Made by a program: the position numbers and the translations under genes. Below are positions 29,280 to 56,428 of a DNA stretch of 56,428 bases, piece by piece (positions within the stretch are counted from its first letter, which is position 1; each line of letters starts with the position of its first letter). This DNA is from Bacteroidaceae bacterium (GTDB lineage Bacteria > Bacteroidota > Bacteroidia > Bacteroidales > Bacteroidaceae). Where the stretch lies: the NCBI GenBank assembly GCA_017560125.1, contig JAFYOS010000024.1, positions 1-56,428 of the forward strand, in the 5' to 3' direction. The notes below the pieces were generated by a model. The model had not been told where the DNA came from and made no database searches. It was given only the letters and a program-made list of their open reading frames with translations.

Positions 29280-30530
29280 CTAGTTACGCTCAAGGTCGTA
29301 TTTAATCTGCAACATGCCCACGAGCTTGTCGTGACGGCCGCCGAAGTCGCGATGATATATCAATATCAGGTATTCATTCTCGGTATTGTAGAAATCGCCT
29401 TCGGCGCGCGCCGTTGTGCCTACGTGGCTGCCGCGTGGCACCCACAGATAGTGGTAGTTGTACAATCCCATTTTCAGTAACTGTACAGAGCGGTAGGCGC
29501 CGCTCTTCTCGTCGTAGTGCATGCGGTTGGCCGCCCCGAAGAAATTGCCGTTGAAGTCACCACACAGGTAGTAGTCGCCCGTGCCGTCGTATGGAGCGTT
29601 CAGTGTGAAGTGAACAGCTGCGTAGTCGGCTGCCATAGGGTCGCCGAAGCCTTGCAGGGTGTTTACAAAGTAGCGTCCGTTCTCGTCGCGGGTGTTGGTG
29701 TATGTATATTTTACCTTGTCGTCGTACAGTTCGGCGTGGTAATAGGGCTCGGCATATTCCACCCTATCTACATTCTGCCCGGGGGCGTATGGGTCGGTGA
29801 GTTCGAAGCGGCGATACTCGTTTCCGGCCTTGAATATCAGTTTTTCGTTATATATATATTGCAGCGAAGTGCCGGTGATGTATGTCGGGGTTATTCCGCT
29901 GACACAATTATCGGGGCGTCTGTTCTGATATACTACCGGCTTGATGTCAACTGCAGGTGTCAGTATGTTGTAGCCTGCTATTCCTACATCGAACGAGAGC
30001 TGCTGATGCGTTTCGTTGGTGTCAATGTCGGTATTGCCGCTAATCTTGGCCGATACATGCAATTTGGGCTCCAACACCGCGAATGCAAATACCGCTACGG
30101 GCTCTTCGTCGTCCTCGTCGTCGTATATCTCTATCTTGTAGTTTCCCGATGCTTTCAGGCGCACATCCTCGTTGGGGATTGAAAAGCTGTAGTTGGTGTA
30201 AAGCTGTGTGGTATTTACCGAATTTTCCCAGTTTTCTATGGGGCGGTCGTTGAATCCCTCGATATAATCCACCTGGTGCAGTTCCGATGTGCTCCAGTCG
30301 GAGTTGCAGTGGATTATGCGATAGGTGAAGCGCTTGTACTTGTGCGACAGCTCGTCGAACGACAGGCATAGTTCGTCGTCGCTGCCCAGTGTGAGTATGG
30401 CCGGCTTGCTCCAATCGTTGTTGAGTACCATTTGCAACGATGCTATGTTGCCCGACATTGAGCGTGCAAATTGGGCGTTAATGGCGGTGGTGCAAATGAA
30501 AAATATTATAAGTATAAGGTATTTTCTCAT
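29280..30530 (-). CDS. DUF5103 protein (type IX secretion system plug protein)
   Basis: A 416-residue secreted protein with signal peptide MRKYLILIIFFICTTAINA. DUF5103 was identified with the Plug protein that closes the SprA translocon of the type IX secretion system in Flavobacterium. Motifs include DDELCLSFDEL, RFTYRIIHCNSDWSTSEL, YSFSIPNEDVRLKASGNY, CGDFNGNFFGAANRM and YNYHYLWVP. The last part has a carbohydrate-binding-module-like shape. Start ATG 30530 gives a clean signal peptide; a longer frame from 30563 would run through the promoter. The role in type IX secretion here is inferred from the family. Confidence 0.82.
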   Translation of the reverse strand: MRKYLILIIFFICTTAINAQFARSMSGNIASLQMVLNNDWSKPAILTLGSDDELCLSFDELSHKYKRFTYRIIHCNSDWSTSELHQVDYIEGFNDRPIENWENSVNTTQLYTNYSFSIPNEDVRLKASGNYKIEIYDDEDDEEPVAVFAFAVLEPKLHVSAKISGNTDIDTNETHQQLSFDVGIAGYNILTPAVDIKPVVYQNRRPDNCVSGITPTYITGTSLQYIYNEKLIFKAGNEYRRFELTDPYAPGQNVDRVEYAEPYYHAELYDDKVKYTYTNTRDENGRYFVNTLQGFGDPMAADYAAVHFTLNAPYDGTGDYYLCGDFNGNFFGAANRMHYDEKSGAYRSVQLLKMGLYNYHYLWVPRGSHVGTTARAEGDFYNTENEYLILIYHRDFGGRHDKLVGMLQIKYDLERN

Positions 30531-30551
30531 TATATAGTGCAAATATCGCCA

Positions 30552-30582
30552 CGAAGATAACACATGGCAGTCGTATTACAAA
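30552..30582 (-). promoter_or_regulatory. Promoter of the DUF5103 gene
   Basis: Minus strand TTTG (30579-30582), 19 bases, TATCTTCG (30552-30559), 21 bases before the start codon. A plus-strand TATCTTTA (30592-30599) nearby may serve the divergent DUF1460 gene. Confidence 0.65.
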
Positions 30583-40548: not shown

Positions 40549-40549
40549 A

Positions 40550-43500
40550 TTACTGCTCCTTTCTCTCCTGCTTCGGCTGCTCGTTGCCATTCCTTGCGGG
40601 GAGGGCCTTCTCGTCCTCTTTCCTCTTGAAAATGAGCAGTTCGTTCAGGTTGTTAAGCTTGCGTTTGTATATATATCCCACGCCTGTTTCTATTATCTCG
40701 CCCTCGAGTATCGATTCGTAGTTCTTGTCGTAGAATATGCGCAGATACCTGTTGCCCGAATTGCTTATTTTCCATTCGAGCGACACGTTGTTTATGAAGC
40801 TCTCGTTGTTCGTCGCATGCTCGTTGTTGTTCACCTCGCCGCCTATTACCACTTTCAGTCGGTCGTTCCAGAACCTCTTGGTGAAGCTGAACGAGTAGTT
40901 CTTGTAGCTGTCGCCCGTGCTCTTATCCTCGAGGTCGGTGATGCCCACGTTTATATCGACGCTCTTGTCCATGACGTTTCCAACGAAATTGTTTATCTGG
41001 TTGTCTAGGAACGAGCTCAGGGCGTTCGATGCGTTCAGGCTGTTTTCGCCACCCGTATATACTCCCGTCACAAGCATGGTTAGGGCATATTTGTTAAGCG
41101 TTTCGGCGTCCACCGAGTTCAGCTGGTTTTGCACGGCGGCATTTTCGGGCGCCGATAGCGTGAAGCTCAGTCCCATCTGCTCGAGGCTGTTGGTCAGCTT
41201 CACTCCCACATCGAACGCCACCGCCTGGTTGCTGTTGTCGATGGTTACGGGCGAAATGACCCGTTCGGTGGCTGTGATGTTCAGCGTGGGGTTCATTATC
41301 TCGCCGTTCCAGTTTATGTAGCTGCCTTGGCCTATGGTGAATGTCTTCAGCGGTATTATGGGCAAGGTGTATTTCAGCTCGCCGTCGCTCAATAGGTAGC
41401 GGCCCGTAAGGTTCATGCCCGCCTCGCTGCTGTATGTGAGATTGAGGTTGCCCTCGCCCTGTAGCTTTATGTAGCTGTTGCGTGCCTCGTCGAAGTCGGC
41501 GTTTATGCGTGCTCCCTCCTCTATGTTCATGGTGATGTTCATGTTTATATTTCCAAGGTCATACTCGGTCGCCTCCTGCACCACCTCGGTGGTGTCGTTG
41601 AAATTGGTGAATGTAACCAATCCGTCGAGGCTGTTCTCCGTTTCCAGGGGGGTGTCCTGTATCACGTATGTGAAATCGCTCTTGCCGAGTATGGTTGCCG
41701 CGCCGTTCACGTTCAGCGCACTGAGCATGCCGCTTATGCGCGAGTTTACGTTTATGAACATTCGTCCATAGAGCATGCTTCCTTTCGTCTGCTTGGCGTT
41801 GACAATCTCATACTCCTTGGCCGTCATCCTCAGGCTGAATTTGGGATCGAGCGGGCTGTTCATGTCAATCGTTCCGTTTATTTTGAACGGCGTATTGCCC
41901 TTGGCATATATATCGAACTCGTTGAAATGCAGAATATTCTCCTTTATATCAATCTTGTCGTCAACCATGCGCAGCGCGGTGCCGAACTGCGGTATGTCGG
42001 TATATACCGAATCGAATTGCACATATCCGTCTGCCCTTGCTTTGCCGGCTTCGTTCCTTATGCTCATGTCGCCATTTATATAACCGCTTGCCGCTATTCC
42101 GCTATCCTTTATGAAGGCGTTGGCAATGGTTACGGGGAAACGCGACAGTTGCAGCTTGCCTACATCCTCACGTTGCAGCGAATCGCTGCTGTATATTCCC
42201 TCCATGTGGGCCACCTCGTCGCCGTAGTGCATGAGCGTAAGGTAGGTATAGTGCTCGGTGCTGCTGCGCGGTATGTACGAGAACTCCAATATCTCGTCGC
42301 CAATGAGCGTTCCTTCGTATTCGAGCTGTTCGCTTCTGATGTCGCTGCCAATCATCATGCCGTCGCGGTTCTCGCGGTAGTGCAAATCGGCGTTCACCAT
42401 GCCGGCGATGTCGGGGGCGAATGGCAGGGTGCGTGTAATGCTCTTCAGGTCTATGTTGAACAGCTCAAGGTATATGTCGCGCTTGTTTATGGAGTCGGAA
42501 TAGGCATAAAGGTTCATTCCGCTGTCGGCGCTGTCGCGCAGCTCTATGTTGCCCCTTATGTTCATTGCCTTGTCCAGTGTTATTTCGTTCTCGTCGTTGA
42601 AGCGGAACGGATGCCTGAATAGTATGGCGTCGGGGGTGAAATTGAAGCGGAAACCCCCACCTGTCATTCGTGCCGTCAGGCCCAGCTTCATGCCTATGTC
42701 GTCTTTCCTGTCGCGGAAAATGTAGTTGGCCGTCAGTTTGTTGCGCTCGAGTGCTCCATGCAGCGCCGCGCCGAAGGTGGCCTTCTCTTCGCTCTTTTCG
42801 GTAGCTCGGCTTCTTATTCCGGCGAAGTAGCGCAGTCGTGTGCTGTCCTGCGACAGCGCAAAGCGCAGGGTGTCGAAGTGCTGCTGCTCGCGGGTGAAAT
42901 GGAATATTTTTCCGAAAGCGTTCAACCCCTTGGTGCTGTCGAGGTTACATCTTACATCAATGGCGTCGAAGCCTATGCCCTCGGCCGACAGGTATTCGGC
43001 GGCGATGTTGTTTTTCATTGCGCTCACGGCTATTTTCGCTTCGGGCAGCAGTCGTTCGTAGCGGCGTATATCTATGATGGTGTCGCGCGCCTCGAGGTTC
43101 TTTTCCACCAGCGACGTCACGTCGGCCACGCTTTTCATTATGGCCTTGTAACCCGCCGACAGGTAACCGTTTATGCTCAGGTCGCCGTTTTGCAGTTCAA
43201 GCAGGGTGCTGTCGTTGTCGGTGGCGGCATATATCGATATATTTTCGGGGGTATATTTTTTTCTGTTGTTCACCAGCAGAATATCCTCGCCGGTGCCCTT
43301 CAGTGTGTATCGGTTATCGAAGTCGGTGAAGGCCTCTATGCTCATAGCCATGCTTGCCGTCGTGGGGCTTTGGGCCAATCCCAGCAGGCGCACGTCGGCC
43401 TCTTCTATCTTCACCTTGGTGCTGTTGGTTACGGTGGAATCCTTCAGCAGGGTATTGGCAAAAAGGCTGCCCTTCAATCCGCTGTATGCCGACACGATGT

Positions 43501-45202
43501 GTATGTCCGATACGTGCCTTTTCTGCTGCGCGTTCAGCGTTATGTTGTTCAGCGTTTGGGTGTCGTATGTGAGCGTGTCGAGCACTACGCTGCATCTGTA
43601 CTCCGTGCTTTCGTCGAACAGGTCGAAGCCCTTGCCGTCGGCTGTGGCTATCATCGTTATTTCGTGGAGCGCCACCTGTGGCAATATCTCCGAAAGAGCA
43701 AATTTGTGGAAATTGGCCGTTGCCTCGTAGCTGTTGTCGTCGGTCATGTACGATGCCACTATGTCGGCCTTGCCCTTTCCTGTTGCAAGCGTGGCATTTG
43801 CGCGGTATTCGCCGTGGTATAGCGATGCGTTACCCTTGAGCCTTATGGGGTGGCTTTGTATGGTGTCGCTCCTTTTCGTCAGCGACATCAGTCGGGCGAG
43901 GCTCTTCGTTTCGCCGTATATATCCACGTCGAACGACCTGTTTTTGCTTGCGATATCAGTGGCTTCGCCCTTGGCGGTTATTGTTGCGATGGCCGGGATG
44001 GTGGCATAGAGCGTGTCGAGCTCTATTTTCTTGCTGTTGCCACGGAGCGATGCCTCTATGTTCAGCATGGAGTCGGGTAGCACGGCAAGGCTGTTGTAGG
44101 TTGTCGCCGTTAGGAATCCCACGAGGTCGCGCTTGTCTATGTGCAGCGCCACAGCCGCGTCTATATTTTTTTCGAACGTATGGCCGCTCAATGCCTCGCC
44201 GGGGATGGTTACCGCGGCGTTTAGCAACGAACCGTTGTGGCTCGACAGCGATAAATCATCTATCACTATGCTGTTGCTGTCGCCGTGCAGTGCCATGTGG
44301 GCCTCCTCTATGGTCAATCCCTGCGGTTGCTGTACCAGTCCAAGGCTATGCAGCTTGGCGGCTATCCTGTCGGGCGAGTAGTGCACCCCTTCGAGCCTTG
44401 CCGATATGTTGCCGAAGCATAGGTGGTCGGTGGGTGCTATGCTGTCGGGCTCGTTGCCTCTGTCGTACCTGAACATGCTTTCGGCAATCTCCAGTTCGTC
44501 GAGGCTGTAGCGCGCTTTGCCCAAATCGACTACGGCGTTGCGCAGCTCGGTGCTTTCGGTGTGGATGGCCATTCCAAAGGGCTCCTTGGGCTCGCGCATT
44601 TCGAAGCCGCTGTTTTCGAGCTTTCCCTTTTTGATGGCTATTTTCCATTCGGCGGGCGACGCGGCGGTTGTGTCCTGCGGCTCGGTGCGTTGCAGGGTGG
44701 TTAGTGCAACGTGGCTGTCGTTTATGTATAGCTGGTTTATGTTTACAATCCTCTCGGATATTTTCAGATTGCGTATGGCGGTGCGGAAATGGCCTATCGT
44801 TCCCTCTATCTGCATGCCGTCTATAAGGTCGTGGCTGTCGATGGTGGTGTTCGACAGCAGTACGTAGTTCACCTCCATCTCGCCGCGGAACAGTGGCAGC
44901 ACCTCGATGTTCACCTTCAGTCGCTCGCCGCTCACTATGGTGTCGCTCTCACGGTAGAGCGTGTAGTCGGTGATGGTAAGGTTCAGTGGGAAGTGGAGCC
45001 TGAACGAGCCCAGGTGGAGCCCGAAATCGCTGTTCTGAGCGACAAGCTCGCTACATTTTCTTGTGGCATGATTTTGTATCGCCGGCACATAGAGCAATAT
45101 CATTGCTGCGAACAGCAAAATGGCAGGCGTCGCAAGTACGATACCCACGACGTTCAATATCCTTCTGCTTTTGCTCTTGTTTTTTTTCATGCTATCGACC
45201 AT
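40550..45202 (-). CDS. tamB: TamB (translocation and assembly module, DUF490 domain)
   Basis: A 1550-residue periplasm-spanning protein, AsmA-like family. An N-terminal transmembrane anchor (NVVGIVLATPAILLFAAMIL, about residues 16-40) is followed by long stretches of regular beta strands forming a groove, thought to carry lipid between membranes. The C-terminal TamB/DUF490 domain spans about residues 1150-1500 (TDLPQFGTAL-like strands, ARINADFDEARNSYIKLQGEG, LTGRYLLSDGELKYTLPIIP) and ends in KRKEDEKALPARN. In E. coli it partners TamA; here the next gene is tamL. An ATG at 45190 is another possible start (drops four residues). fucP lies upstream by 82 bases. Confidence 0.85.
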   Translation of the reverse strand: MVDSMKKNKSKSRRILNVVGIVLATPAILLFAAMILLYVPAIQNHATRKCSELVAQNSDFGLHLGSFRLHFPLNLTITDYTLYRESDTIVSGERLKVNIEVLPLFRGEMEVNYVLLSNTTIDSHDLIDGMQIEGTIGHFRTAIRNLKISERIVNINQLYINDSHVALTTLQRTEPQDTTAASPAEWKIAIKKGKLENSGFEMREPKEPFGMAIHTESTELRNAVVDLGKARYSLDELEIAESMFRYDRGNEPDSIAPTDHLCFGNISARLEGVHYSPDRIAAKLHSLGLVQQPQGLTIEEAHMALHGDSNSIVIDDLSLSSHNGSLLNAAVTIPGEALSGHTFEKNIDAAVALHIDKRDLVGFLTATTYNSLAVLPDSMLNIEASLRGNSKKIELDTLYATIPAIATITAKGEATDIASKNRSFDVDIYGETKSLARLMSLTKRSDTIQSHPIRLKGNASLYHGEYRANATLATGKGKADIVASYMTDDNSYEATANFHKFALSEILPQVALHEITMIATADGKGFDLFDESTEYRCSVVLDTLTYDTQTLNNITLNAQQKRHVSDIHIVSAYSGLKGSLFANTLLKDSTVTNSTKVKIEEADVRLLGLAQSPTTASMAMSIEAFTDFDNRYTLKGTGEDILLVNNRKKYTPENISIYAATDNDSTLLELQNGDLSINGYLSAGYKAIMKSVADVTSLVEKNLEARDTIIDIRRYERLLPEAKIAVSAMKNNIAAEYLSAEGIGFDAIDVRCNLDSTKGLNAFGKIFHFTREQQHFDTLRFALSQDSTRLRYFAGIRSRATEKSEEKATFGAALHGALERNKLTANYIFRDRKDDIGMKLGLTARMTGGGFRFNFTPDAILFRHPFRFNDENEITLDKAMNIRGNIELRDSADSGMNLYAYSDSINKRDIYLELFNIDLKSITRTLPFAPDIAGMVNADLHYRENRDGMMIGSDIRSEQLEYEGTLIGDEILEFSYIPRSSTEHYTYLTLMHYGDEVAHMEGIYSSDSLQREDVGKLQLSRFPVTIANAFIKDSGIAASGYINGDMSIRNEAGKARADGYVQFDSVYTDIPQFGTALRMVDDKIDIKENILHFNEFDIYAKGNTPFKINGTIDMNSPLDPKFSLRMTAKEYEIVNAKQTKGSMLYGRMFINVNSRISGMLSALNVNGAATILGKSDFTYVIQDTPLETENSLDGLVTFTNFNDTTEVVQEATEYDLGNINMNITMNIEEGARINADFDEARNSYIKLQGEGNLNLTYSSEAGMNLTGRYLLSDGELKYTLPIIPLKTFTIGQGSYINWNGEIMNPTLNITATERVISPVTIDNSNQAVAFDVGVKLTNSLEQMGLSFTLSAPENAAVQNQLNSVDAETLNKYALTMLVTGVYTGGENSLNASNALSSFLDNQINNFVGNVMDKSVDINVGITDLEDKSTGDSYKNYSFSFTKRFWNDRLKVVIGGEVNNNEHATNNESFINNVSLEWKISNSGNRYLRIFYDKNYESILEGEIIETGVGYIYKRKLNNLNELLIFKRKEDEKALPARNGNEQPKQERKEQ

Positions 45203-45284: not shown

Positions 45285-46589
45285 TCAGCTTGTTGCTTTT
45301 GCTGTGCTGCGACCATAGGCAGCTATCACCACGAAGCATATCAGTGGCAGCACGAACGACAGGTTCACGGCGGGCACTCCGGCTATGGTGTCTTGGTCTA
45401 TTATCATGGCCTGCACGGGCGGTAGTACCGAACCACCCAGAATGGCCATTATGAGGCCTGCTGCACCCAGCTTGGCGTCCTCGCCGGTGCCCTTGAGGGC
45501 AATGCCGTATATTGTGGGGAACATGAGCGACATGCATGCCGAAATGGCTACAAGCGAATAGAGGCCATATATGTTCTGCAATACTATCGCTCCCGTTGTG
45601 AAGATCGCAGCGGCTACGGCCAATGTGGCAAGCAGTTTGCCAGGGTTGATAAATCGCAGCAGGTATGTGCACACGAAGCGACTGCAACAGAACAGTATCA
45701 TAGCAGCTATGTTATATCCTTGCGAAAGCACTTCGGCGCTCTTCTCGTCCATGCCTTGCGATGTGAAAAGCCTTGTGCCATACTGTATTATGAAGGTCCA
45801 CACCATTATCTGTGCGCCCACGTAGAAAAATTGTGCTACCACGCCGTTGCGGTATCTGTTGTTCGCAAACAGGCGCTTGGCGGTGTCGCCAAATTTCATT
45901 TGTCCCGAGGTGTCGCCTTCGGTGGGCATTTTCACTACCATGAAGAGCAGGAATATGATGCCTATTACAATGCCAATGGCTATGTATGGCTCAATGAGTA
46001 TTCCCAAATCGGCGTCGCGAAGCGCGGCAAATTCCGCATCTCCCAGCAGGCTTCTCTCGCTGGAGCTCATGGGGCTCAATCTGTTCTGAATGAAGTTCAT
46101 TGCAACGTACATGCCCATGAGCGAGCCTATGGGGTTGAACGACTGCGCAAGGTTCAGTCGCTGTGTGGCGGTTTTTTCGTCGCCTAGCGATAGTATGTAC
46201 GGGTTGCAGCTTGTTTCCAGGAACGACAGTCCGCATGTGAGCACGAAGTAGGCCAACAGGAAAGGGTAGTAGCTGCCTGTCGCCTTGGCCGGAATGAAAA
46301 GCAGTGCGCCACATGCATAGAGCGCAAGGCCTGTCATTATGCCGGCCTTGTACGAGAAGCGGCGTATGAACATGGCAGCAGGTATGGCCATTGCAAAATA
46401 GCCACCATAGAAGGCTACCTGCACGAGCGCACCGTCGGTAACGCTCATGCGGAATATCTTCGAAAATGCTTTAACCATGGGGTTTGTTATGTCGTTGGCA
46501 AATCCCCACAGGGCAAAGCAGCATGTTACCAAAATGAACGGTATTATCAGTGAGGCGCTGCTTGCGCTCTTTTTTTGCGTGTCTTTCAT
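45285..46589 (-). CDS. FucP-like sugar:proton symporter (MFS)
   Basis: A 434-residue 12-helix major facilitator protein of the L-fucose permease/glucose-galactose group. Motifs include FALWGFANDITNPMVKAFSK at the first helix, FYGGYFAMAIPAAMFIRR, LSFLETSCNPYILSLG and AQSFNPIGSLMGMYV, all close to FucP. It imports fucose, glucose, galactose or a similar sugar with protons; the exact sugar is not clear. No fucose catabolic genes are adjacent. A -7 box TATTTTTG lies at 46620-46627 on the minus strand. It may share a transcript with tamB and tamL. Confidence 0.88.
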   Translation of the reverse strand: MKDTQKKSASSASLIIPFILVTCCFALWGFANDITNPMVKAFSKIFRMSVTDGALVQVAFYGGYFAMAIPAAMFIRRFSYKAGIMTGLALYACGALLFIPAKATGSYYPFLLAYFVLTCGLSFLETSCNPYILSLGDEKTATQRLNLAQSFNPIGSLMGMYVAMNFIQNRLSPMSSSERSLLGDAEFAALRDADLGILIEPYIAIGIVIGIIFLLFMVVKMPTEGDTSGQMKFGDTAKRLFANNRYRNGVVAQFFYVGAQIMVWTFIIQYGTRLFTSQGMDEKSAEVLSQGYNIAAMILFCCSRFVCTYLLRFINPGKLLATLAVAAAIFTTGAIVLQNIYGLYSLVAISACMSLMFPTIYGIALKGTGEDAKLGAAGLIMAILGGSVLPPVQAMIIDQDTIAGVPAVNLSFVLPLICFVVIAAYGRSTAKATS

Positions 46590-46973: not shown

Positions 46974-46981
46974 TATATTTG
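46974..46981 (+). promoter_or_regulatory. -7 box upstream of the FAS1 array
   Basis: TATATTTG, exact TAnnTTTG, about 150 bases before the first FAS1 gene. The -33 position lacks TTG, so an activator or alternative sigma factor is possible. Confidence 0.4.
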
Positions 46982-47131
46982 CCTATAGATGTTTGCCTGT
47001 TTTATAGTGGCTTCTATTGAAAAAACAGTTGTTAATAAATATTAAATCGGGGGGGTAAATCCTTTGGATGTATATTGTAAAATATTTACAAATGCTCTTC
47101 TCCTTATAAAGAGGTTTTTATGAAGAGAGGT

Positions 47132-49108
47132 ATGAAACGAATACTATACATACTCGCAATAGCGCTGTCAATCTTCGCCTGCACCGACGAGATAGACAAG
47201 AGCAACCGCTACACCTTCACCGGTGAGACGGTGGCCGACTATTTGCTCAATCGCAGCGAGAAATACTCCCACATGATTACCCTGCTGAAACGTGCCGACC
47301 TTCTCAGCCTGCTGAATACCTACGGGCAATACACCCTGTTTCTGCCTGATAACGACGCGGTGGAAAAATACCTTGCCGAACAGGACAGCATCTACCACGC
47401 AACCAAGGATAGCGACAACCCCATTTGGACGGGTGTTACCTCGCCACTCGTTGAAGACCTCAGCGACTCGATGGCGGTGGTGCTTGCACGCACCCACATA
47501 GTTGAGGGCTGTTTCAATACCTCTAATCTGGGCGAGGGCTCGGTAGCGCAGTGGAACTTTGATAACCACTATCTTGGAATAAATTATGTGGTGGAGGGCG
47601 AGAATTACTACATAATGATAAACAACTATTCGCGCATAATGACACGCGACGAATATGTGGAGAATGGAATAATACACACTCTCGACAAGGCTATAAACCC
47701 CGCCTCGTTCAGCTTGCCGGGGCATATTGGGCGGTACAACTATTTCGGGCTATTTAGTGCCGCGTTACAGCTTACTGGCCTTGCCGATTCGTTGCTGAAA
47801 TATAGCGACGATTCGTATGTGGCGCCCGAAAAATATTCATTAAGCGCCGAAGGAGCGATTTATGTCCCGGATAATCTCGTTTCCGTTCCTGAAAAGAAAT
47901 TTTATCGCTACACGGCATTTGTAGAGAGCGACGAGGTGTTCCGCAAGCAAGGAATAGAGAGCATAGACGACCTTGTTGCCTTTGCCGAGAAGTGGTACGG
48001 CGCCGAGGATAAGGGCAATTTCTCCAGTCGGAAAAATGCGCTGAATAGGTTCGTTGCCTATCATATAATAGAGGGTGAATATCCATCGAACAAGATTTTG
48101 CCGCAGGGTGGTCAGTACGAAATTCATTTGGGCAAAAAATATCCCCGTTTCGACTATTTTGAAACCATGCAGGGCACGTTGATGAAGGTGGTAAAGCCAT
48201 ATGGCACGCAGGATGCAGCCAATATCTACATAAACTATTCCAAGCGCGAAATGCCTTACAACCCCGAACTGCGGCACCATGTAAATGTTCGGCTGATAGA
48301 GACAACCGAGTTTACACAATCCGACCCGAGGCATAGTGATTTTGTACAAAATGCGCTTAACGGCGTTGTTCAGCCTATCGACAAGATTCTCATCTACAAC
48401 GAGGATGAAATGGTGGGCAACATACTGAACGAGCGCATGCGCTTCGACTTTTTATCGATGATGCCCGAATTGTCAAGCAACAATATAAGATACAAATATA
48501 GTAATAATGATTTTACAATCATCCCCACCGACTATTGTCGCAATATAAAGAGCAACAGCAATCAATTCAAGATATATAAACAAAATAATGGTGGTTTATA
48601 TTTTCTTGATGATTTAAGACCATTGGGGCTTTTTGATTTTTCGTTTCGGTTGCCACCTGTTCCTTCGCGAACATACGAAATACGCTTTTCTTGCAACATA
48701 CAGGACTTCTATGATGACAGAGAGGCTGTGGTGCAAATGTATATTGATAATAAGGTAAGTGGATTGCCAATAGATTTTCGCATAGGGTGCCTTGACCAGC
48801 GCATTGGTTGGTTCGCGGATGAAGAGACTAACGACAATGGTGTTGAAAAAGATAAACAGATGCGTAACCGCGGATGGATGAAAGCACCCGATAGTTTTAA
48901 CCTTATGACTGGTGAATATACGGCAAGAAGCATCCGGGGTACTCTTCGTCGCATAGTGGATAGAAAATATTTAAGTGAAGGCGAACATTGGATACGTTTC
49001 AAAAACGTATCTGAAAATACAAATTTTAATAGTTTTATGTTCGATTATATTGAACTTGTGCCATTGCATATTGTAAGCGACCCCAACAAGCCCGAGGATA
49101 GACATTGA
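47132..49108 (+). CDS. FAS1-domain lipoprotein, copy 1
   Basis: A 658-residue lipoprotein. The signal ends at the lipobox LSIFAC (Cys 17), then TDEIDKSN, an acidic start like surface-export signals of Bacteroidota. A first fasciclin domain lies at about 25-190 (GETVADYLLNRSEKYSHMI, YGQYTLFLPDNDAVEKYL, NGIIHTLDKAI). A second spans about 195-420 (KFYRYTAFVESDEVF, NALNRFVAYHII, VVQPIDKILIYNEDEM). A C-terminal beta-rich domain runs from 430, with FRLPPVPSRTYEIRF and RIGWFADEETNDNG, ending in HIVSDPNKPEDRH. FAS1 domains mediate adhesion; FAS1 lipoproteins in Bacteroidales often accompany SusCD loci. I chose ATG 47132, as in the other copies and after GAGAGG; another ATG is at 47120. Confidence 0.8.
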   Translation: MKRILYILAIALSIFACTDEIDKSNRYTFTGETVADYLLNRSEKYSHMITLLKRADLLSLLNTYGQYTLFLPDNDAVEKYLAEQDSIYHATKDSDNPIWTGVTSPLVEDLSDSMAVVLARTHIVEGCFNTSNLGEGSVAQWNFDNHYLGINYVVEGENYYIMINNYSRIMTRDEYVENGIIHTLDKAINPASFSLPGHIGRYNYFGLFSAALQLTGLADSLLKYSDDSYVAPEKYSLSAEGAIYVPDNLVSVPEKKFYRYTAFVESDEVFRKQGIESIDDLVAFAEKWYGAEDKGNFSSRKNALNRFVAYHIIEGEYPSNKILPQGGQYEIHLGKKYPRFDYFETMQGTLMKVVKPYGTQDAANIYINYSKREMPYNPELRHHVNVRLIETTEFTQSDPRHSDFVQNALNGVVQPIDKILIYNEDEMVGNILNERMRFDFLSMMPELSSNNIRYKYSNNDFTIIPTDYCRNIKSNSNQFKIYKQNNGGLYFLDDLRPLGLFDFSFRLPPVPSRTYEIRFSCNIQDFYDDREAVVQMYIDNKVSGLPIDFRIGCLDQRIGWFADEETNDNGVEKDKQMRNRGWMKAPDSFNLMTGEYTARSIRGTLRRIVDRKYLSEGEHWIRFKNVSENTNFNSFMFDYIELVPLHIVSDPNKPEDRH

Positions 49109-49176
49109 TGAGGTTAATAATTGTTAAATAATGGGGTGGCTTCGCTAATTCTAAAAAGAACTATATTTGAAAAAAA
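49109..49176 (+). repeat. Type A spacer between FAS1 copies 1 and 2
   Basis: 68 bp. It shares most positions with the spacer before copy 4: a GTTAAA stretch, a G run (four here), GGCTTCGCTAATT, AAAAAGAACTATATTTG and an A run before the ATG. TATATTTG (49162-49169) matches a -7 box but lies only 7 bases from the ATG. Confidence 0.75.
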
Positions 49177-51168
49177 ATGAAACGATTACTTTACATACTC
49201 GCATTTGCGCTATCAATGGTCGCCTGCACCGACGACATCGACAAGAGCAACCGTTACACTTTCACAGGTGAGACGATGGCCGACTATTTGCTCAACCGCA
49301 GCGAGAAGTATTCCCACATGATTACCCTGCTCGAACGTGCCGACCTTTTCAGCCTGCTCAATACATACGGGCAATACACCCTCTTCCTGCCCGACAACGA
49401 GGCGGTGGAAAGATTCCTTGCCGAGCAGGACAGCATATACTGGGCAACAAAGGACACCCCCGGATTCATAAACACCGGAATAACCTCGTCACTCGTGGAG
49501 GAACTGAGCGACTCGATGGCGAACGTAATTGCACGCACCCATCTAATAGAGACCATGCACATGATGGCAGAGATGGGCGAAGGCGCTCTCCCATCGCGTA
49601 ACTTCAATTACCGTTTCTTAGGCATCAATTATGCTGTCAAGGGCGAACAGTATTACATAATGCTCAACAACAGCGCAGCAATAATTGCCGGCGACAATCA
49701 GGTAGAAAATGGAGTAGTGCATATAGTAGATGAGGTAGTCGTTCCCTCGCAGAAGAATGTCCCCGAACTCATAGGTTCGTACAGTTTCTTCAGCATCTTT
49801 GCCAATGCACTCTACCTGACAGGCTTCCGCGACTCGCTGACGCTTGAAAATGATGACAGCTACGATGCTGACAATTATAAGTTTCAGGATGATAAATCTT
49901 TTGGAGCTTGGGTTACTTCTCCCCCGACACGTTACTATAAATATACAGGCTTCATTGAGACCGATGAGGTGTTCCGCAGCTACGGCATCAACGATGTGAA
50001 CGACCTGCGTGTCTTTGCCGAAAAGTGGTACGGCTCCGAAGACAGGGACAGCCTGACAAGTCCGCGCAATGCGCTGCATAAATTCGTTGCCTACCACTTT
50101 GTGCCGCGCGAAATGCCGCACAACCGGATAGTGCCCTACGGTCTGGGCAACCATTATTGGAACATAGATAAATATATGCCGACAATGTACGACCGCTACG
50201 ACTATTTCGAGACTATGCAGGGCACAATGATGAAGGTTGTGAAGCCCTTGAGCCGCCCCGATGGAAGTGATACGTTCATCAATTACAATATGCGCGAAGT
50301 ACCGTTCAACACAGATATGCACCGCCATCTGAGTGTGCGCGTGATTCCGCTCACCGAGTTTGTAGCTTCGCATGAGGAGTATGCCCGATTTGACCAGATG
50401 GCGACCAACGGCGTTGTGCACCCCATAGACAAGATTCTCATTTACAACGAGAATGAGATGTTCGGCAACATCCTCAATGAGCGCATAAGGATAGATGTGC
50501 TCAGTCTGCTTCCCGAACTCCAATGTAACGGTTGCAGATATAATACTGCGCAAGTGTACTATGAAAATTATCTGCCCAATGGGTACAGCAAGAATTTGAG
50601 CGTGAGAGAAGGAGTTGTGCAGTATGGTAGCGGACTTTTCATGGGTGGATCTATTCATTGCAGTAGGTTCTTTGATTTCGAATTGACACTTCCTCCACTT
50701 CCGTCGCGTGTGTACGAGGTGAGGGTTGGAATGAGGCAACCGTTGACATTTATAGGTGTCATGATAGATTTTCCTTGTCAGGTATATATCGACGGAAAAG
50801 TGGAGGGGGACCCATTCAGGGTTACATATTTGGATGTTTCAAGCAGATGGGAGGGGAATTTTACCGGTTATGTGCCCGATGACGAAACATACGACAATGG
50901 ATTGGAAAATGACAAATACATGCGTCTTAAAGGGTGGATGAAGGCACCAATGTCACTTTATACAACTAACAGTGATGGTTATATGTGCGCAAGAGACGAT
51001 AAAGCCAATATAAGAAGAATTATTACAAAAAAGAGGTTCGACGGCGGGCGCCATAAGATAAGATTCAGGTATATCGGTGAATTTAGCGTGGATGCCATCA
51101 TAGATTATCTCGAATTTGTGCCGTTGCACATTGTCAGCGACCCGACGAAGCCTGAGGACAGATATTGA
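49177..51168 (+). CDS. FAS1-domain lipoprotein, copy 2
   Basis: A 663-residue paralogue of copy 1 with the same plan: lipobox LSMVAC, TDDIDKSNRYTFTGETMADY, two fasciclin domains and the C-terminal domain with YVPDDETYDNGLENDKYMR, ending HIVSDPTKPEDRY. Its first ~250 bases are nearly identical to copy 4. From about residue 85 it instead resembles copy 5 (FINTGITS, VVVPSQKNVPE versus PPTQKNVAE). The segment before the C-terminal domain (about 455-500) is unlike all other copies. Confidence 0.8.
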   Translation: MKRLLYILAFALSMVACTDDIDKSNRYTFTGETMADYLLNRSEKYSHMITLLERADLFSLLNTYGQYTLFLPDNEAVERFLAEQDSIYWATKDTPGFINTGITSSLVEELSDSMANVIARTHLIETMHMMAEMGEGALPSRNFNYRFLGINYAVKGEQYYIMLNNSAAIIAGDNQVENGVVHIVDEVVVPSQKNVPELIGSYSFFSIFANALYLTGFRDSLTLENDDSYDADNYKFQDDKSFGAWVTSPPTRYYKYTGFIETDEVFRSYGINDVNDLRVFAEKWYGSEDRDSLTSPRNALHKFVAYHFVPREMPHNRIVPYGLGNHYWNIDKYMPTMYDRYDYFETMQGTMMKVVKPLSRPDGSDTFINYNMREVPFNTDMHRHLSVRVIPLTEFVASHEEYARFDQMATNGVVHPIDKILIYNENEMFGNILNERIRIDVLSLLPELQCNGCRYNTAQVYYENYLPNGYSKNLSVREGVVQYGSGLFMGGSIHCSRFFDFELTLPPLPSRVYEVRVGMRQPLTFIGVMIDFPCQVYIDGKVEGDPFRVTYLDVSSRWEGNFTGYVPDDETYDNGLENDKYMRLKGWMKAPMSLYTTNSDGYMCARDDKANIRRIITKKRFDGGRHKIRFRYIGEFSVDAIIDYLEFVPLHIVSDPTKPEDRY

Positions 51169-51276
51169 AAGCCCAGCAAAGGGCGAAATTATAAAGCGTA
51201 GTCCGTTAGGGCTACGAATAAAGCACAAAACACGTATAACCCTGCAAGGGGCGACATAAAAACGAGATTGTTTAAC
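51169..51276 (+). repeat. Type B spacer between FAS1 copies 2 and 3 (short GC hairpin repeats)
   Basis: 108 bp. It contains small GC-rich palindromic units: GCCC-AGCAAA-GGGC, a GCGTAGTCCGTTAGGGCTAC block, and CCCTGCAAGGGGCGACA, then GAGATTGTTTAAC before the ATG. The same units in the same order occur in the spacer before copy 5. They resemble dispersed hairpin repeats of Bacteroidota genomes rather than promoters. Confidence 0.75.
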
Positions 51277-53256
51277 ATGAAACGAATACTTTACATACTC
51301 GCATTTGCGCTATCAATAGTCGCTTGCAACGACGACATCGACAAGAGCAACCGCTACACTTTCACCGGTGAGACGATGGCCGACTATTTGCTAAACCGCA
51401 GCGAGAAATACTCCCACATGATTACCTTGCTGAAGCGTGCCGAGCTTTTCAGCTTGCTGAATACATACGGACAATACACTCTGTTCCTCCCGGACAACGA
51501 GGCAGTAGAAAAATATGTGGCAGATCAGGACAGCATATATTGGGCAACAAAAAATAGCGACAATCCTGTATGGACAGGAATAACCTCGCCGTTTATCGAA
51601 GAGCTGAGCGACTCGATGGTAAATGCAATTGCCCGCATGCACCTGATAGAGAAAGATTACCGCACTGCCCAAATGGGTGAGGGGGCAATAGCCAAATGGA
51701 ATTTCAACGACAGGATATTGACAATAAACTACAAGGTGGACGATGAGCGTTTCTACATAATGCTCAACAATGACGCAGCCATAATAGATGGCGACAATCA
51801 AGTAGAGAATGGTATTATCCATCTGATAGACAAGCCTATTAACACCAAAAGCACCACAGTGGCAGCACAGATAGCCCAACATAAATTCTTCAGCATATTC
51901 AGCAAGGCTATTGCCGAGACAGGCTTCGAAAGTAAAGTGGCTGATATGATAGATTTTTCATATTCCGAATATATTCCAAGTAACAGCGATTTGCAGAAAT
52001 ATGTTCCCAAGAAAAAATACATTAAATACACCGCCTTTGTCGAACCCGACGAGGTGTTCCACAAGAATAGCATCTACACCCTCGACGACCTCAAGGCATT
52101 TGCCGAAAAATGGTACGGCACAGAGGAGAGGGACAACCCACGTAATCCCAAAAATGCCCTCCACAAATTTGTTGCCTACCACTTTGTAGAGGGTGAAATA
52201 CCATACAACATGATAGTGCCCTCCGAATCCGGCCTAATAGAGAATGGCTACGTATCTACTATTGTTCCCGGATACGATCTTTATAACTATTATCCTACAA
52301 TGATGGGGAAATTGATGAAAGTACTGAAACCATTGAGCACACCAAATGGCCGTAATATATACATCAACTGGTCGAAACGCGAGATTCCGTATAATTTCGA
52401 GATGCGCAACCACACAAATGTCCGCATCATTGAGCTTACAGAATTTATTCAGACGGATGAACAGTATGCCAATTTTGTATCGACGGCAGGCAACGGCCTT
52501 ATACACCCGATAGACAAGATACTTATATATAACGAGGATGAAATGGCTGGCAATATACTCAACGAACGTATGAGATTCGACATTGCAGCTTTGCAGCCCG
52601 AACTGTCGAGCAACAATTTATGGCAAGGCAGCGCGTATGTCTATTTCCCAATAGACTATTGCAAAGGGCTTAAAAAATGTGGTCTTGAAGACCTGATGCA
52701 TTATCGTGTTGATTTTGGACATAACTGCGATTTCTTTATTTTTATGAACGAATACGATGTAGCCATTAAGATACCTCCCGTGCCAACAAGAACATACGAA
52801 ATAAGATATTCAACAATACAGCAAGCCACTGAGCAAGTTAGTGAAACAGATTTTTATCAAGTTTATTTCGATGACAAGATATGTGGGCTGCCTGTTTGCA
52901 ACGATATAAATTCTACGGACTCCCGCATCGGATGGGTAAGAGACGATGAAACATTAGATAACGGAGTGGAAAATGACAAGCTTCTTCGGAATAAGGGCTG
53001 GATGAAAGCACCTGATACATATAATACACATAATTATAGACCAGGTTATGTGGATGGTCCCGCACGAGACGATTACAGTTCGATGCGCAAAATTGCCTTG
53101 ATTGAGCATCTTGTAGAAGGGGAGCATTGGCTGCGTTTCAGACATCTAAGAGAAGGTAATTATCATTCTAAAATTGCATCGGATATCTTCGACTATATTG
53201 AACTTGTGCCGCTACATATTGTAAGCGACCCCATAAACCCCGAGGACAGGCACTAA
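51277..53256 (+). CDS. FAS1-domain lipoprotein, copy 3
   Basis: A 659-residue paralogue. Lipobox LSIVAC, then NDDIDKSNRYTF. The first fasciclin domain carries LLKRAELFSLLNTYGQYTLF, and the middle resembles copy 4 (ARMHLIEKDYR, KWNFNDR, IDKPI, IAETGF). The C-terminal domain has RIGWVRDDETLDNGVENDK and ends HIVSDPINPEDRH. The start is ATG 51277; an in-frame TTG lies at 51268 but the other copies begin MKR. The 5' leader is type B, unlike that of copy 4. Confidence 0.8.
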   Translation: MKRILYILAFALSIVACNDDIDKSNRYTFTGETMADYLLNRSEKYSHMITLLKRAELFSLLNTYGQYTLFLPDNEAVEKYVADQDSIYWATKNSDNPVWTGITSPFIEELSDSMVNAIARMHLIEKDYRTAQMGEGAIAKWNFNDRILTINYKVDDERFYIMLNNDAAIIDGDNQVENGIIHLIDKPINTKSTTVAAQIAQHKFFSIFSKAIAETGFESKVADMIDFSYSEYIPSNSDLQKYVPKKKYIKYTAFVEPDEVFHKNSIYTLDDLKAFAEKWYGTEERDNPRNPKNALHKFVAYHFVEGEIPYNMIVPSESGLIENGYVSTIVPGYDLYNYYPTMMGKLMKVLKPLSTPNGRNIYINWSKREIPYNFEMRNHTNVRIIELTEFIQTDEQYANFVSTAGNGLIHPIDKILIYNEDEMAGNILNERMRFDIAALQPELSSNNLWQGSAYVYFPIDYCKGLKKCGLEDLMHYRVDFGHNCDFFIFMNEYDVAIKIPPVPTRTYEIRYSTIQQATEQVSETDFYQVYFDDKICGLPVCNDINSTDSRIGWVRDDETLDNGVENDKLLRNKGWMKAPDTYNTHNYRPGYVDGPARDDYSSMRKIALIEHLVEGEHWLRFRHLREGNYHSKIASDIFDYIELVPLHIVSDPINPEDRH

Positions 53257-53327
53257 GTGATTATTAAAGATTGTTAAAAATGGGGGGGTAGCTTCGCTAA
53301 TTGTAAAAAGAACTATATTTGAAAAAA
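53257..53327 (+). repeat. Type A spacer between FAS1 copies 3 and 4
   Basis: 71 bp, homologous to the spacer before copy 2. It has a run of seven G, then TAGCTTCGCTAATTGTAAAA, GAACTATATTTG and an A run. Confidence 0.75.
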
Positions 53328-55301
53328 ATGAAACGATTACTTTACATACTCGCATTTGCGCTATCAATGGTCGCCTGCACCGACGACATTGACAAGAGCA
53401 ACCGCTTTACCTTCACCGGTGAAACGATGGCCGACTATTTGCTCAACCGCAGCGAGAAGTATTCCCACATGATTACCCTGCTCGAACGTGCCGACCTTCT
53501 CAGCCTGCTCAATACATACGGACAATACACCCTTTTCCTGCCCGACAACGAAGCAGTGGAAAAATATGTTGCAGAGCAGGACAGCATATATTGGGCAACA
53601 AAAGATACTGATATCCCGGTGTGGACCGGAATAACCTCGCCCCTTGTTGAGGAGCTTAGCGACTCGATGGCAAATTTCATTGCTCGCATGCACCTGATTG
53701 AGAAAAACTACCGCATGGCAGACTTTTGCGAAGGAACGATAGGGAAATGGAATTTCAACGACAGAGCACTGGTGATAAGCTACAAGGTAACCGGCGAACA
53801 GTTCTATATGATGATAAACAACAGCTCGGCAATCGTCGATGCCGACAACGAAGTGGAGAACGGATTTATACATCATATAGACAAGCCCATCGACATCAAG
53901 CATACCACCATTGTCAACCGCATCAACGAGCAGAGTTTCTTCAAGATTATCAGCAGGGCAATAGCAGAGACCGGGTTCACAAATGCCGTATTAGGCGATA
54001 TAGACTATACATACAAACTTCCTGAAGATGCCGAAACAAAAGGTTTCCTCAAAACAAGGAAATATATAAAATACACAGCTTTCCTTGAACCCGACGATGT
54101 GTTCTATAAAAATGGCATATATACTCTCGACGACCTGATTGCATTTGCCGAAAGGTGGTACGGCACCGAGGACAGAGGTAATCTGCGTAGCCCAAAGAAT
54201 GCGCTGTACAAGTTCGTTGCCTATCACTTTATAGATGGCGAAATAGCCTATAACAAGATAGTGCCGTCGCCTTCGGTAGGATATTTCGGTGAAGTATGCC
54301 GTCCGGAGTACGACCTATACAACTATTTTACTACTCTCTACGGCAAACTAATTAAGGTAATGAAGCCGCTGAGCACCCCCGACGGGCAGAACATATACAT
54401 AAATTACTCAAAACGCACAATGCCGTATAACTTCGAAATGCGCAAGCACTTGAATGTACGCGTAATTCAACTTACGGAATTTACTAAGATGAATGAAGAG
54501 TACGCCGATTTCAACCCTATGGCAGCCAATGGAATAATACACCCCATAGATAAGATTCTCGTTTACGATGATGACGAGATGACGGCTAATATACTCAACG
54601 AGCGAATGCGTTTCGACGCAGTAACGTTGCTGCCCGAACTGTCGAGCAACAACATTTGGCAAAATGAGTCGTATAAATTTCCTGGAGAGTACTGCAAGGG
54701 TATCAAGAGATACGGAACTGAAAGGTATTTGAGATATTTATGTCCCTATTATCGTTATCATTGCGATTGCTTGCCAATGATTAACCGTTTCGATTGGGCG
54801 ATAAAGTTGCCGCCTGTACCGAGTAGGGTTTACGAAATAAGAATAAATTTAGAATTGCATTCACAAGAATCTGATTCGCGCAAGAATAATGGGGGCATAC
54901 AAATATACCTTGATGATGTGATATGCGACCTTCCTTTGAATACGGGATTGGCAGCTAAGGACGAACGTGTCGGATGGATTGCAGACGATGAGACATACGA
55001 TAATGGTGTCGAAAACGACAAACTTCTCAGGAATAAGGGATGGATGAAGGGACCTGATAACTTTTGTTACAATTATGGATCAAGTATTTTGCCTGCAAGG
55101 AACTATCCTAATTTTATGCGTAAAATTATAACAAGGAAGTATCTTGCGGATGGGGAACATTGGCTACGTTTCAGAAATCTTTCAGAGGATACCGATGGTA
55201 TCGAAAATAATTACGATGTGTCTTATTATATGCTTGACTACATAGAGATAGTGCCGTTTCGCATAGTCAGTGACCCCACAAAACCCGAGGACAGGCACTG
55301 A
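53328..55301 (+). CDS. FAS1-domain lipoprotein, copy 4
   Basis: A 657-residue paralogue. The signal peptide is identical to that of copy 2 (MKRLLYILAFALSMVAC), while the body from about residue 85 is closest to copy 3 (VEKYVAEQDSIYWATKD, ARMHLIEKNYR, IDKPIDIK). The C-terminal domain has RVGWIADDETYDNGVENDK and the end is RIVSDPTKPEDRH. The variable segment before it is Tyr/Cys-rich (LRYLCPYYRYHCDC). An in-frame TTG at 53319 is not needed. Confidence 0.8.
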   Translation: MKRLLYILAFALSMVACTDDIDKSNRFTFTGETMADYLLNRSEKYSHMITLLERADLLSLLNTYGQYTLFLPDNEAVEKYVAEQDSIYWATKDTDIPVWTGITSPLVEELSDSMANFIARMHLIEKNYRMADFCEGTIGKWNFNDRALVISYKVTGEQFYMMINNSSAIVDADNEVENGFIHHIDKPIDIKHTTIVNRINEQSFFKIISRAIAETGFTNAVLGDIDYTYKLPEDAETKGFLKTRKYIKYTAFLEPDDVFYKNGIYTLDDLIAFAERWYGTEDRGNLRSPKNALYKFVAYHFIDGEIAYNKIVPSPSVGYFGEVCRPEYDLYNYFTTLYGKLIKVMKPLSTPDGQNIYINYSKRTMPYNFEMRKHLNVRVIQLTEFTKMNEEYADFNPMAANGIIHPIDKILVYDDDEMTANILNERMRFDAVTLLPELSSNNIWQNESYKFPGEYCKGIKRYGTERYLRYLCPYYRYHCDCLPMINRFDWAIKLPPVPSRVYEIRINLELHSQESDSRKNNGGIQIYLDDVICDLPLNTGLAAKDERVGWIADDETYDNGVENDKLLRNKGWMKGPDNFCYNYGSSILPARNYPNFMRKIITRKYLADGEHWLRFRNLSEDTDGIENNYDVSYYMLDYIEIVPFRIVSDPTKPEDRH

Positions 55302-55428
55302 AAGCCCCGAAGGGGCGACATTATAAAGCGTAGTCCGTAAGGGCTATGAATGAACGTAAGGACTATGTATGAAAATCAAAAACCAACAAAGCCCTGTAAG
55401 GGGCGACACAAAAATGAGATTGTTTAAC
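55302..55428 (+). repeat. Type B spacer between FAS1 copies 4 and 5
   Basis: 127 bp with the same GC hairpin units as the spacer before copy 3, more perfect here: GCCCCGAAGGGGCGACAT, AAAGCGTAGTCCGTAAGGGC, and GCCCTGTAAGGGGCGACA, plus an extra CGTAAGGACTATG unit. The last bases GAGATTGTTTAAC are identical in both type B spacers. Confidence 0.75.
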
Positions 55429-56428
55429 ATGAAACGAATACTCTACACACTCGCATTGGCCCTGTCAATCCTCGCCTGCACCGACGACATCGACAAAAGT
55501 AACCGCTTTACCTTCACCGGTGAGACGATGGCGGACTTTTTGCTCAACCGCAGCGAAAAGTATTCGCATTTCATCACGATGCTCGAACGTGCCAACCTGC
55601 TGGGATTGCTCTCCACCTATGGACAATACACCCTCTTCCTACCCGACAACGATGCTGTAGAAAAATTCGTCGCCGAGCAAGACAGCATCTATTGGGCGAC
55701 AAAAGATACACCGCAATTTATAAATACGGGAATAACCTCGCCGCTCGTGGAGGAACTGAGCGACTCGATGGCAAACGTGCTTACTCGCACCCATCTGCTT
55801 CCGGCACGCTTTCACAGCGCAGATATGGGTGAGGGGGCAATGGGTACACGCAATTTCAATAAACGCTATCTTGGAGTGAACTACAAAGCAACCGATGAAG
55901 ATTTCCATATTCTTATAAATAATCTATCGGCTATCACACATGGCGATAATGAGGTTGAAAATGGAATTATTCATATAATTGACAGGGTAATTCCTCCAAC
56001 GCAAAAAAATGTAGCTGAACAGATAGCATCGTGCAGTTTCTTTAAGATATTCACGGCAGCCATCAACGAAACGCGCTTTTGCGACTCGCTTCGGCTCGAT
56101 ATGGACAACACATACTTGCTTGCAGATGTTCCTGCGCTCGGCTACAACGGCCAGTCGAATATGGCTATATATCCAAAATCGAAGCACTACAAATACACTG
56201 CGTTTGTAGAAACAGATGACCTCTTCGCTAAGAATGGCATTTACACCTTGGACGACCTGAAAGCATTTGCCCGAAAGTGGTACGGCGTCGAGGATAGCGA
56301 TAACCCGCGCAGCCCAAAGAACGCGCTCTACAAATTCGTGGCCTATCACTTCATAGAACGCGAACTTATATATAACGAGCTTATCCCACACAATATAGAC
56401 AAATATCACTATAACAGCGAACATGCAA
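55429..56428 (+). CDS. FAS1-domain lipoprotein, copy 5 (cut by the window end)
   Basis: The first 333 residues of a fifth paralogue; the frame is open to the window edge. It starts MKRILYTLALALSILAC, then TDDIDKSNRFTF, with the first fasciclin domain (YGQYTLFLPDNDAVEKF) and part of the second (YKYTAFVETDDLFAKNGIY, NALYKFVAYHFIEREL). It is the most diverged in the first domain (HFITMLERANLLGLLSTYG) and groups with copy 2 in the middle. Further copies or SusCD genes may follow. Confidence 0.78.
   Translation, partial: MKRILYTLALALSILACTDDIDKSNRFTFTGETMADFLLNRSEKYSHFITMLERANLLGLLSTYGQYTLFLPDNDAVEKFVAEQDSIYWATKDTPQFINTGITSPLVEELSDSMANVLTRTHLLPARFHSADMGEGAMGTRNFNKRYLGVNYKATDEDFHILINNLSAITHGDNEVENGIIHIIDRVIPPTQKNVAEQIASCSFFKIFTAAINETRFCDSLRLDMDNTYLLADVPALGYNGQSNMAIYPKSKHYKYTAFVETDDLFAKNGIYTLDDLKAFARKWYGVEDSDNPRSPKNALYKFVAYHFIERELIYNELIPHNIDKYHYNSEHA

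Follow-up and report, generated by a model that had tools for sequence, protein, structure and literature searches.

The right end of the window, by which we mean the whole 56,428-nucleotide stretch analysed here, carries on its + strand five FAS1 lipoprotein genes, four of them complete and the fifth represented by its 5′ portion (47120–56428; Table 1). The window corresponds to contig C21 in a draft genome of 2.61 Mb, which is 98.5% complete with 6.4% contamination. All five proteins match the Pfam Fasciclin model (PF02469) above its cut-off, at 61–73 bits against 22, and the array described in the sequence-only reading is thus real. That reading had counted five copies of about 660 residues. 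The count stands and the length holds for the four complete ORFs (660–663 aa), but only 353 aa of gene 5 lie inside the window, where the contig terminates within the gene, and genes 1, 3, 4 and 5 likely start at internal ATGs. The last 122 bases of the window overlap exactly with the end of contig C29 of the same genome, which holds the remainder of gene 5 with the C-terminus SDPTKPEDRH, then a cyclophilin gene and an M16 peptidase gene. Because this overlap places the cyclophilin and the peptidase after gene 5, the array ends there and comprises five genes. Between the five, the + strand carries no further gene; the sequence-only reading had noted that no transporter, sigma or enzyme gene is interspersed. 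The copies share 51–62% protein identity with each other, so the array is not a chance arrangement.

Table 1. Positions of the array genes, their predicted heads and nearby features in the window.
Feature	Position	Strand	Basis or remark
FAS1 lipoprotein gene 1	47120..49108	+	ORF and Pfam Fasciclin; likely start internal ATG 47132
FAS1 lipoprotein gene 2	49177..51168	+	ORF and Pfam Fasciclin; source of structure model
FAS1 lipoprotein gene 3	51268..53256	+	ORF and Pfam Fasciclin; likely start internal ATG 51277
FAS1 lipoprotein gene 4	53319..55301	+	ORF and Pfam Fasciclin; likely start internal ATG 53328
FAS1 lipoprotein gene 5, 5′ part	55369..56428	+	Open-ended frame; likely start internal ATG 55429; remainder on contig C29
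Head of gene 1 (CBM-like jelly roll)	48416..49105	+	Placed by GNILNER motif; near-unchanged in a SIG131 copy
Head of gene 2	50464..51165	+	Modelled alone
Head of gene 3	52549..53253	+	Placed as for gene 1 head
Head of gene 4	54585..55298	+	Placed as for gene 1 head
TATATTTG box upstream of gene 1	46974..46981	+	Presumed Bacteroidales-type -7 box
G7 tract, conserved upstream region of gene 1	47049..47055	+	
Palindrome TTGTAAA-n-TTTACAA before gene 1	47075..47091	+	Operator-like; sole exact one in window
G4 tract upstream of gene 2	49133..49136	+	25 nt before TATATTTG box 49162-49169; place derived from distances
G7 tract upstream of gene 4	53282..53288	+	25 nt before TATATTTG box 53314-53321
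Spacer, genes 2-3	51169..51267		Repeat type 2 (GGGGCGACA family)
Spacer, genes 4-5	55302..55368		Repeat type 2 (GGGGCGACA family)
fucP, L-fucose:H+ symporter	45285..46589	-	Divergent neighbour; context, outside array

The proteins begin with a lipoprotein signal and an acidic start after the cysteine, as first read: all five leaders follow C-[TN]-D-[DE]-I-D-K-S-N-R after the lipobox. Across an 18-row alignment the lipobox Cys is invariant and followed by [TSNK]-[DE]-[DE]-I-D, which is an outer-membrane lipoprotein signal; acidic residues after this cysteine are the export-signal rule of Bacteroidota lipoproteins. The leader motif, together with knowledge of the family, predicts outer-membrane lipoproteins exposed on the surface. 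Pfam reports a second Fasciclin stretch in only two of the five array proteins, and the second FAS1 domain was called from two-domain alignments. An AlphaFold2 model of the gene 2 protein (mean pLDDT 89.3) and fold comparison support a pair of FAS1 domains and a distinct domain at the C-terminus, so that the FAS1 fold on which the earlier description depended is present. All four complete proteins end in SDPxxPEDR[HY], and the gene 5 remainder on C29 shares this ending.

The C-terminal domain, for which profile and structure searches had been proposed, forms a jelly-roll head whose closest folds are carbohydrate-binding modules (fold comparison; the gene 2 head was also modelled alone). Its identity to CBM35, CBM6 and the MiXBM/xanthan-lyase module is 7–17%, and the fold score of Cry toxin domain III is as high as that of CBM35. 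None of 59 heads scanned reached the cut-off of any Pfam model; the best CBM-like match was PF14683 (E 0.015, in two of the 59) and the best of any family Endotoxin_C (E 0.00086, in one). The five array proteins have no NCBIfam match, and their weak Pfam matches below cut-off include one in gene 2 (PF05588, 18.5 bits against 21). The heads are probably carbohydrate-binding, as judged from a fold that also occurs without sugar binding, and by itself this fold cannot pick among an adhesin, nutrient capture and a variable surface coat.

The window also contains a GH92 gene, a LacZ-type beta-galactosidase-like gene (below the model cut-off) and a T9SS plug gene. Elsewhere in the genome, one orphan copy lies amid sialic-acid acetylesterases, a GLAA-B protein, an M60 peptidase and GH123, with no SusCD. 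This mucin cluster is one example only, because the other neighbours scanned are often housekeeping genes: with ten neighbours scanned, genes for SecDF, gyrase and transketolase adjoin copies in related genomes, and some copies have GH2, GH20 or rhamnosidase genes nearby.

The family profile gives 22 matches in this genome, corresponding to 20 genes, since gene 5 and a broken copy on C8 count as two matches each. Five are those of the present array, and five more form another array about 119 kb away on C29; C8 carries two, C13 four, and C31, C24, C22 and C26 a single gene each. One C8 copy, interrupted by a stop, is the only one of the 20 that is visibly broken. Two C13 genes lie inside a locus of the order SusC-SusD-FAS1-FAS1-(shorter FAS1)-SusC-SusD (L026). 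BLAST with the SusC and SusD of this locus found neither in the stretches read around the other 18 family genes, and the SusC/SusD pair, for which the array's surroundings were to be checked, is absent from both the window and the C29 flank and occurs only at L026. Similar one-member loci surround matches titled Prevotella, Xylanibacter, Coprobacter, Duncaniella and others. Across 20 loci (L112–L131), SusC1–SusD1 precede the family gene in 19, SusC2 follows in 18 and a labelled SusD2 in 16; L115 and L129 are cut off, L126 is without the locus, and L112 has a gene called on the opposite strand at the family gene. The family derives from the FAS1 lipoprotein of this Bacteroidales FAS1-SusCD locus, and the earlier remark that FAS1 lipoproteins occur beside SusCD pairs is borne out as the ancestral setting.

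All three SusC matches of the genome at E ≤ 1e-20 fall in the L026 FAS1 locus, and only two SusD-like matches stand against the 20 family genes. The FAS1-SusCD locus is kept in this genome, RGIG4123, RGIG7298 and SIG128. SIG131, with 27 family matches, has no SusC2 and no SusD match, and RGIG7201 has SusC2 at 93% and a single weak match to SusD but none to SusC1; with completeness of about 85% in each assembly, these absences are suggestive only. Recent tandem duplication was rejected as the source of the copies, the paralogues of this genome having a mean pS of 0.69–0.84 over most of the gene and lower values (0.55–0.65) only toward the 5′ end. Phage or plasmid carriage was also rejected, with no confirmed relative among viral contigs and, in the plasmid search, one partial match at 26% in Runella. 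Insertion borders cannot be claimed from clean empty sites; in the case tried (L064) one flank alone matched.

The sequence-only reading had called the array unusual, and it proves to be one piece of a genome-wide expansion restricted to one clade. Among 44 genomes of the genus, all draft MAGs, six have 9–27 family matches (this genome 22, G041 27, G011 23, G055 12, G020 12 and G024 9) and 38 have 0–3; the counts include fragments and at most 27 candidates were scored per genome, so that large counts are approximate. Judged by coordinates, the expanded genomes include MAGs titled water buffalo cecum (G020, G055) and roe deer colon (G011), as well as SIG131 and SIG128. The fusA protein, matched in 18 of 30 genomes searched and not in G020, is 96–98% identical to that of this genome in G041, G024, G011 and G055 and 86–87% identical in 13 unexpanded genomes. 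SusC2 identity to the protein of this genome is 93% in G020, 78–81% in G055, G011 and G024, and 61–67% in nine unexpanded genomes. The expansion therefore marks one clade, since both proteins set the expanded genomes together. A tree of 102 proteins, each with a profile score above 400 and 590 aa (six loci of L113–L131 were admitted and four of these, L113, L116, L121 and L125, entered), places 59 in one supported clade, all from expanded species and RGIG4115. Because species interleave within it, the copies either diversified before the species split or have been exchanged since. SusD-like genes number 0–3 in the expanded genomes and 2–8 (median 6) in the others. Few SusD genes and many FAS1 genes thus count as a single correlated change, because both mark the same clade.

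Within the expanded family, variation is concentrated in the head. Mean column entropy over 13 orphan copies of this genome is 0.81 in the first FAS1 domain, 1.21 in the second and 1.58 in the head, and four random clade sets of 18 give 0.84–0.92, 1.22–1.27 and 1.61–1.64. Variability in the head is close to double that in the first FAS1 domain, which is not so in two sets of relatives. The corresponding values are 1.40, 1.45 and 1.34 for 18 SusCD-locus orthologues of other genomes (without L112 and L126, near relatives included), and 1.24, 1.50 and 1.24 for 15 proteins at a site before a NadE-like gene. The latter set covers 12 loci, three with two copies, from MAGs taken for unexpanded genus members, a placement inferred from matching gene spacing. 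As neither set of relatives has the contrast, it belongs to the expansion. Insertions in the clade fall mostly within the head (9.0 of 11.0 units), in a 59-row set that leaves out the PUL copies, the C26, C22 and C13:225k branches together with the orthologues of these branches, and rows under 590 aa; this set also underlies the entropy values of the clade and the nearest-relative count given below. Head pN/pS is below 1. Of the surface adhesin or glycan-binding repertoire first suggested, the glycan-binding part gains support from the CBM-like fold and from the head being the diversified part, and the suggestion as a whole is partly supported.

The family genes are mosaic between species. For flanking genes, median dS per 60-codon window is 1.39 to SIG131 (5th percentile 0.52, minimum 0.06; 134 windows) and 1.14 to RGIG7201 (5th percentile 0.62, minimum 0.43; 68 windows); for gene 2 it is 0.20 to the SIG131 counterpart and 0.15 to the RGIG7201 counterpart. 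Low divergence is not unique to the FAS1 family, because one small flanking gene is also close to SIG131 (dS 0.34, lowest 60-codon window 0.06). Gene 1 reaches a dS of up to 3 to a SIG131 copy in the first FAS1 domain, has no synonymous difference from it over 192 codons of the head (residues 452–647; permutation p ≤ 0.0005), and differs again in the codons after residue 647. The longest run without synonymous change gave p < 0.05 in eight of nine family pairs and 0.06 in the ninth; in four flanking-gene controls the same test gave 0.41–0.71 in three and 0.0075 in one, with a 17-codon run. Three further pairs have sharp divergence changes at other points. In 38 of 59 rows the domains do not all have the same nearest relative, an uncontrolled count that includes near-ties between orthologues. 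Recombination may be the cause of each mosaic. Assembly of low-coverage MAGs could yield single chimeras; such blocks recur in several MAGs. Positive selection on the 192-codon head was considered and dropped, as eight nonsynonymous against zero synonymous differences are non-significant by an estimate of site numbers.

A run of 4–9 G after a TTAA motif lies upstream of 9 of the 20 copies in this genome and of 8 of 56 copies in other species (SIG131 6/22, RGIG7298 2/6, RGIG4123 0/11, RGIG7201 0/9, elsewhere 0/8). In 12 of these 17 tract-bearing copies the sequence TATATTTG, which we take to be the Bacteroidales-type -7 box consensus, follows the run at 25–26 nt. This genome has 23 runs of 7 G or more, and seven of them lie upstream of family genes, against 0.02 expected if independent, but duplicated upstream regions are not independent. 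Three dispersed copies have about 250 bp of upstream sequence in common, with G tracts of 7, 9 and 7 and the palindrome TTGTAAA-n-TTTACAA, which is perfect in two of the copies and has a single mismatch in the other. Such tracts would allow slipped-strand phase variation as a candidate mechanism, and the common upstream regions with their palindrome would fit one regulator for several copies. The pattern GTTAAAN{1,6}GGGGG has 18 overlapping matches at eight sites in this genome, six of them upstream of family genes and two on C17. As a general promoter motif it is weak, given six matches of a reversed-pattern control, and the promoter argument consequently rests on the G-run count. Across 13 other genomes, matches of a stricter pattern lie upstream of family genes in 4/4 cases in G041, 1/1 in G055 and 0/1 in G020, with none found in G011 or G024; four of eight unexpanded genomes have five matches between them, none on a contig with a listed family gene. 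An invertible promoter seems improbable for the array, which has no inverted repeat of at least 18 nt; one 17-nt AT-rich inverted pair, upstream of gene 1, leaves the TATATTTG box outside. REP-like 24-mers occur within 400 bp of family genes in 8/9 cases in G011 and 5/32 in G020 (positions compared by eye).

The best explanation of these observations, which we hold with fair confidence, is a repertoire of surface glycan-binding lipoproteins with exchangeable heads. On the outer-membrane surface, each protein would have a lipid anchor, a stalk of two FAS1 domains and a CBM-like head. The family would have been founded within a single clade of gut Bacteroidales, when the FAS1 lipoprotein of the FAS1-SusCD locus was duplicated, and copies would have dispersed into arrays and to single sites that lack SusC and SusD. 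Intragenic recombination near conserved borders may then swap heads and N-terminal parts among copies and species, leaving the stalk rather constant while the head varies. The heads would bind different glycans, most likely of host mucin type, and serve adhesion rather than uptake: they would hold the cell on its glycan substrate, exo-glycosidases would free sugars, and symporters such as FucP would import them. With modest confidence, we favour host-glycan binding over both receptors that share a transporter and a variable coat. Under the former reading, which we consider unlikely, the FAS1 lipoproteins are interchangeable capture subunits that dock on the one or two SusC/SusD transporters encoded in the ancestral locus, broadening import. 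It draws on the position of the ancestral member directly after SusD, on the confinement of SusC to that locus beside so few SusD-like genes, and on the retention of the locus in four genomes. The SusC2 and SusD matches missing from SIG131 and the SusC1 match missing from RGIG7201 point the other way, as far as incomplete assemblies allow, and the conserved stalk might serve for docking or be no more than a stalk.

The heads might instead diversify under phage or antibody pressure in a variable surface coat whose copies are switched on and off, with glycan binding incidental, as in phase-variable S-layer lipoproteins and mycoplasma Vpma. The G tracts and their differing lengths in otherwise similar upstream regions, the mosaic genes and the repeat-rich spacers agree with such a coat, but the similar regions are duplicates, few copies of other species have a tract, long inverted repeats are absent from the array and head pN/pS is below 1; we regard this reading as rather improbable. 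Mostly non-adaptive proliferation through recombination between dispersed short repeats, with heads under relaxed constraint, seems to us very improbable. The REP-like 24-mers, the broken copy and sites that differ between species speak for it, yet a single visibly broken copy is few for paralogues this old, and relaxed constraint predicts neither heads more diverse within the clade than among orthologues of other genera nor a near-unchanged head in otherwise diverged genes. Returning to the repertoire of exchangeable heads, a far-reaching version is that the clade largely swapped SusCD glycan capture for mosaic receptors, in which a constant FAS1 stalk would carry some 20 CBM-like heads that species exchange at conserved borders within the genes and that are expressed copy by copy through slipping promoter G tracts. 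As a whole, this version is speculative and rather doubtful.

The usual account of gut Bacteroidales centres on their SusCD systems, and a SusCD-poor clade with about 20 variable-headed proteins suggests another hold on host or diet glycans. A constant stalk with an exchangeable head would also constitute a natural library, through which the evolution of ligands could be tested directly in an uncultured lineage. Each part of the system is known, but searches of the open-licence PMC literature brought up no description of such an array, as a polysaccharide locus or otherwise, nor of the combination of clade-specific expansion, head-specific diversity and exchange, and SusCD scarcity. In two papers, fasciclin is named an ancient adhesion domain (PMC7661554) and a PUL figure only labels a FAS1 protein (PMC4891872). 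According to a third, the B. thetaiotaomicron S-layer lipoprotein BT1927 is phase-variable and switched by an invertible promoter (PMC12548429). The present family resembles it as surface lipoproteins whose expression can switch, here only as a candidate property, and differs in having G tracts only, with no conserved inverton found.

Among established systems, the closest is the Bacteroidales FAS1-SusC-SusD locus, in which family members likewise follow SusC1-SusD1 and precede a shorter FAS1 protein and SusC2. Unlike it, the expanded family has orphan copies without SusC/SusD, in arrays and at single sites, and their heads vary more than their stalks. Promoter switching by poly-G or poly-C operates in Treponema Tpr and Bordetella fim; like these, the present family has surface-protein genes with a homopolymer tract close to the promoter, and here switching would be a candidate mechanism. 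TGFBIp, periostin and Drosophila fasciclin I, which have extracellular adhesion roles, share the FAS1 fold and its tandem arrangement; here the domains belong to bacterial lipoproteins with a CBM-like head. That head is likened to CBM35, CBM6 and the MiXBM/xanthan-lyase module by fold alone and, unlike them, is not attached to an enzyme. SusE/SusF-type surface glycan-binding proteins of PULs are outer-membrane lipoproteins with binding domains, as is predicted here, and the ancestral SusCD link extends the likeness; in contrast to that type, the copies of the FAS1 family far outnumber the transporters.

The window also holds a type IX secretion plug protein gene, as well as the TamL and TamB genes, which adjoin fucP and the FAS1 lipoprotein array (see table). 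Elsewhere in the same draft genome, one of the two family copies on contig C8 has a break close to where the stalk meets the head, and yet its G tract of 9 is the longest among the genome's own copies. Contig C17 (locus L051) carries numerous short frames and several G6-G9 runs, and looks like mobile or foreign DNA.

Coordinates of the features described
Feature	Contig	Position	Model
Type IX secretion plug protein	C21 (window)	29280-30563	NF052315
TamL and TamB genes	C21 (window)	38221-45202	
Region of the interrupted family copy (L025)	C8	4940-8870 of L025	
Orphan FAS1 gene and cluster (L028)	C13	217000-236000	

Across many related MAGs, a family gene occupies a constant position (loci L092-L107 and L110) ahead of two genes, which we take from their sequences to be NadE-like and ClpB-like. 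REP-like palindromic repeats with a 24-mer core occur in the spacers of loci L053-L070 and in the genome of the FAS1-expanded relative G020, with 32 matches in G020 and 9 in G011; the own genome has a single match and G024 has none.

The orphan FAS1 gene on C13 is surrounded by a mucin-type degradation cluster (SASA esterases, GLAA-B, an M60 peptidase, GH123, GDSL and a BspA-type LRR protein) from which SusCD is absent. Genus-wide, the number of SusD-like genes is 0-3 in FAS1-expanded species, compared with a median of 6 for the other members of the genus.
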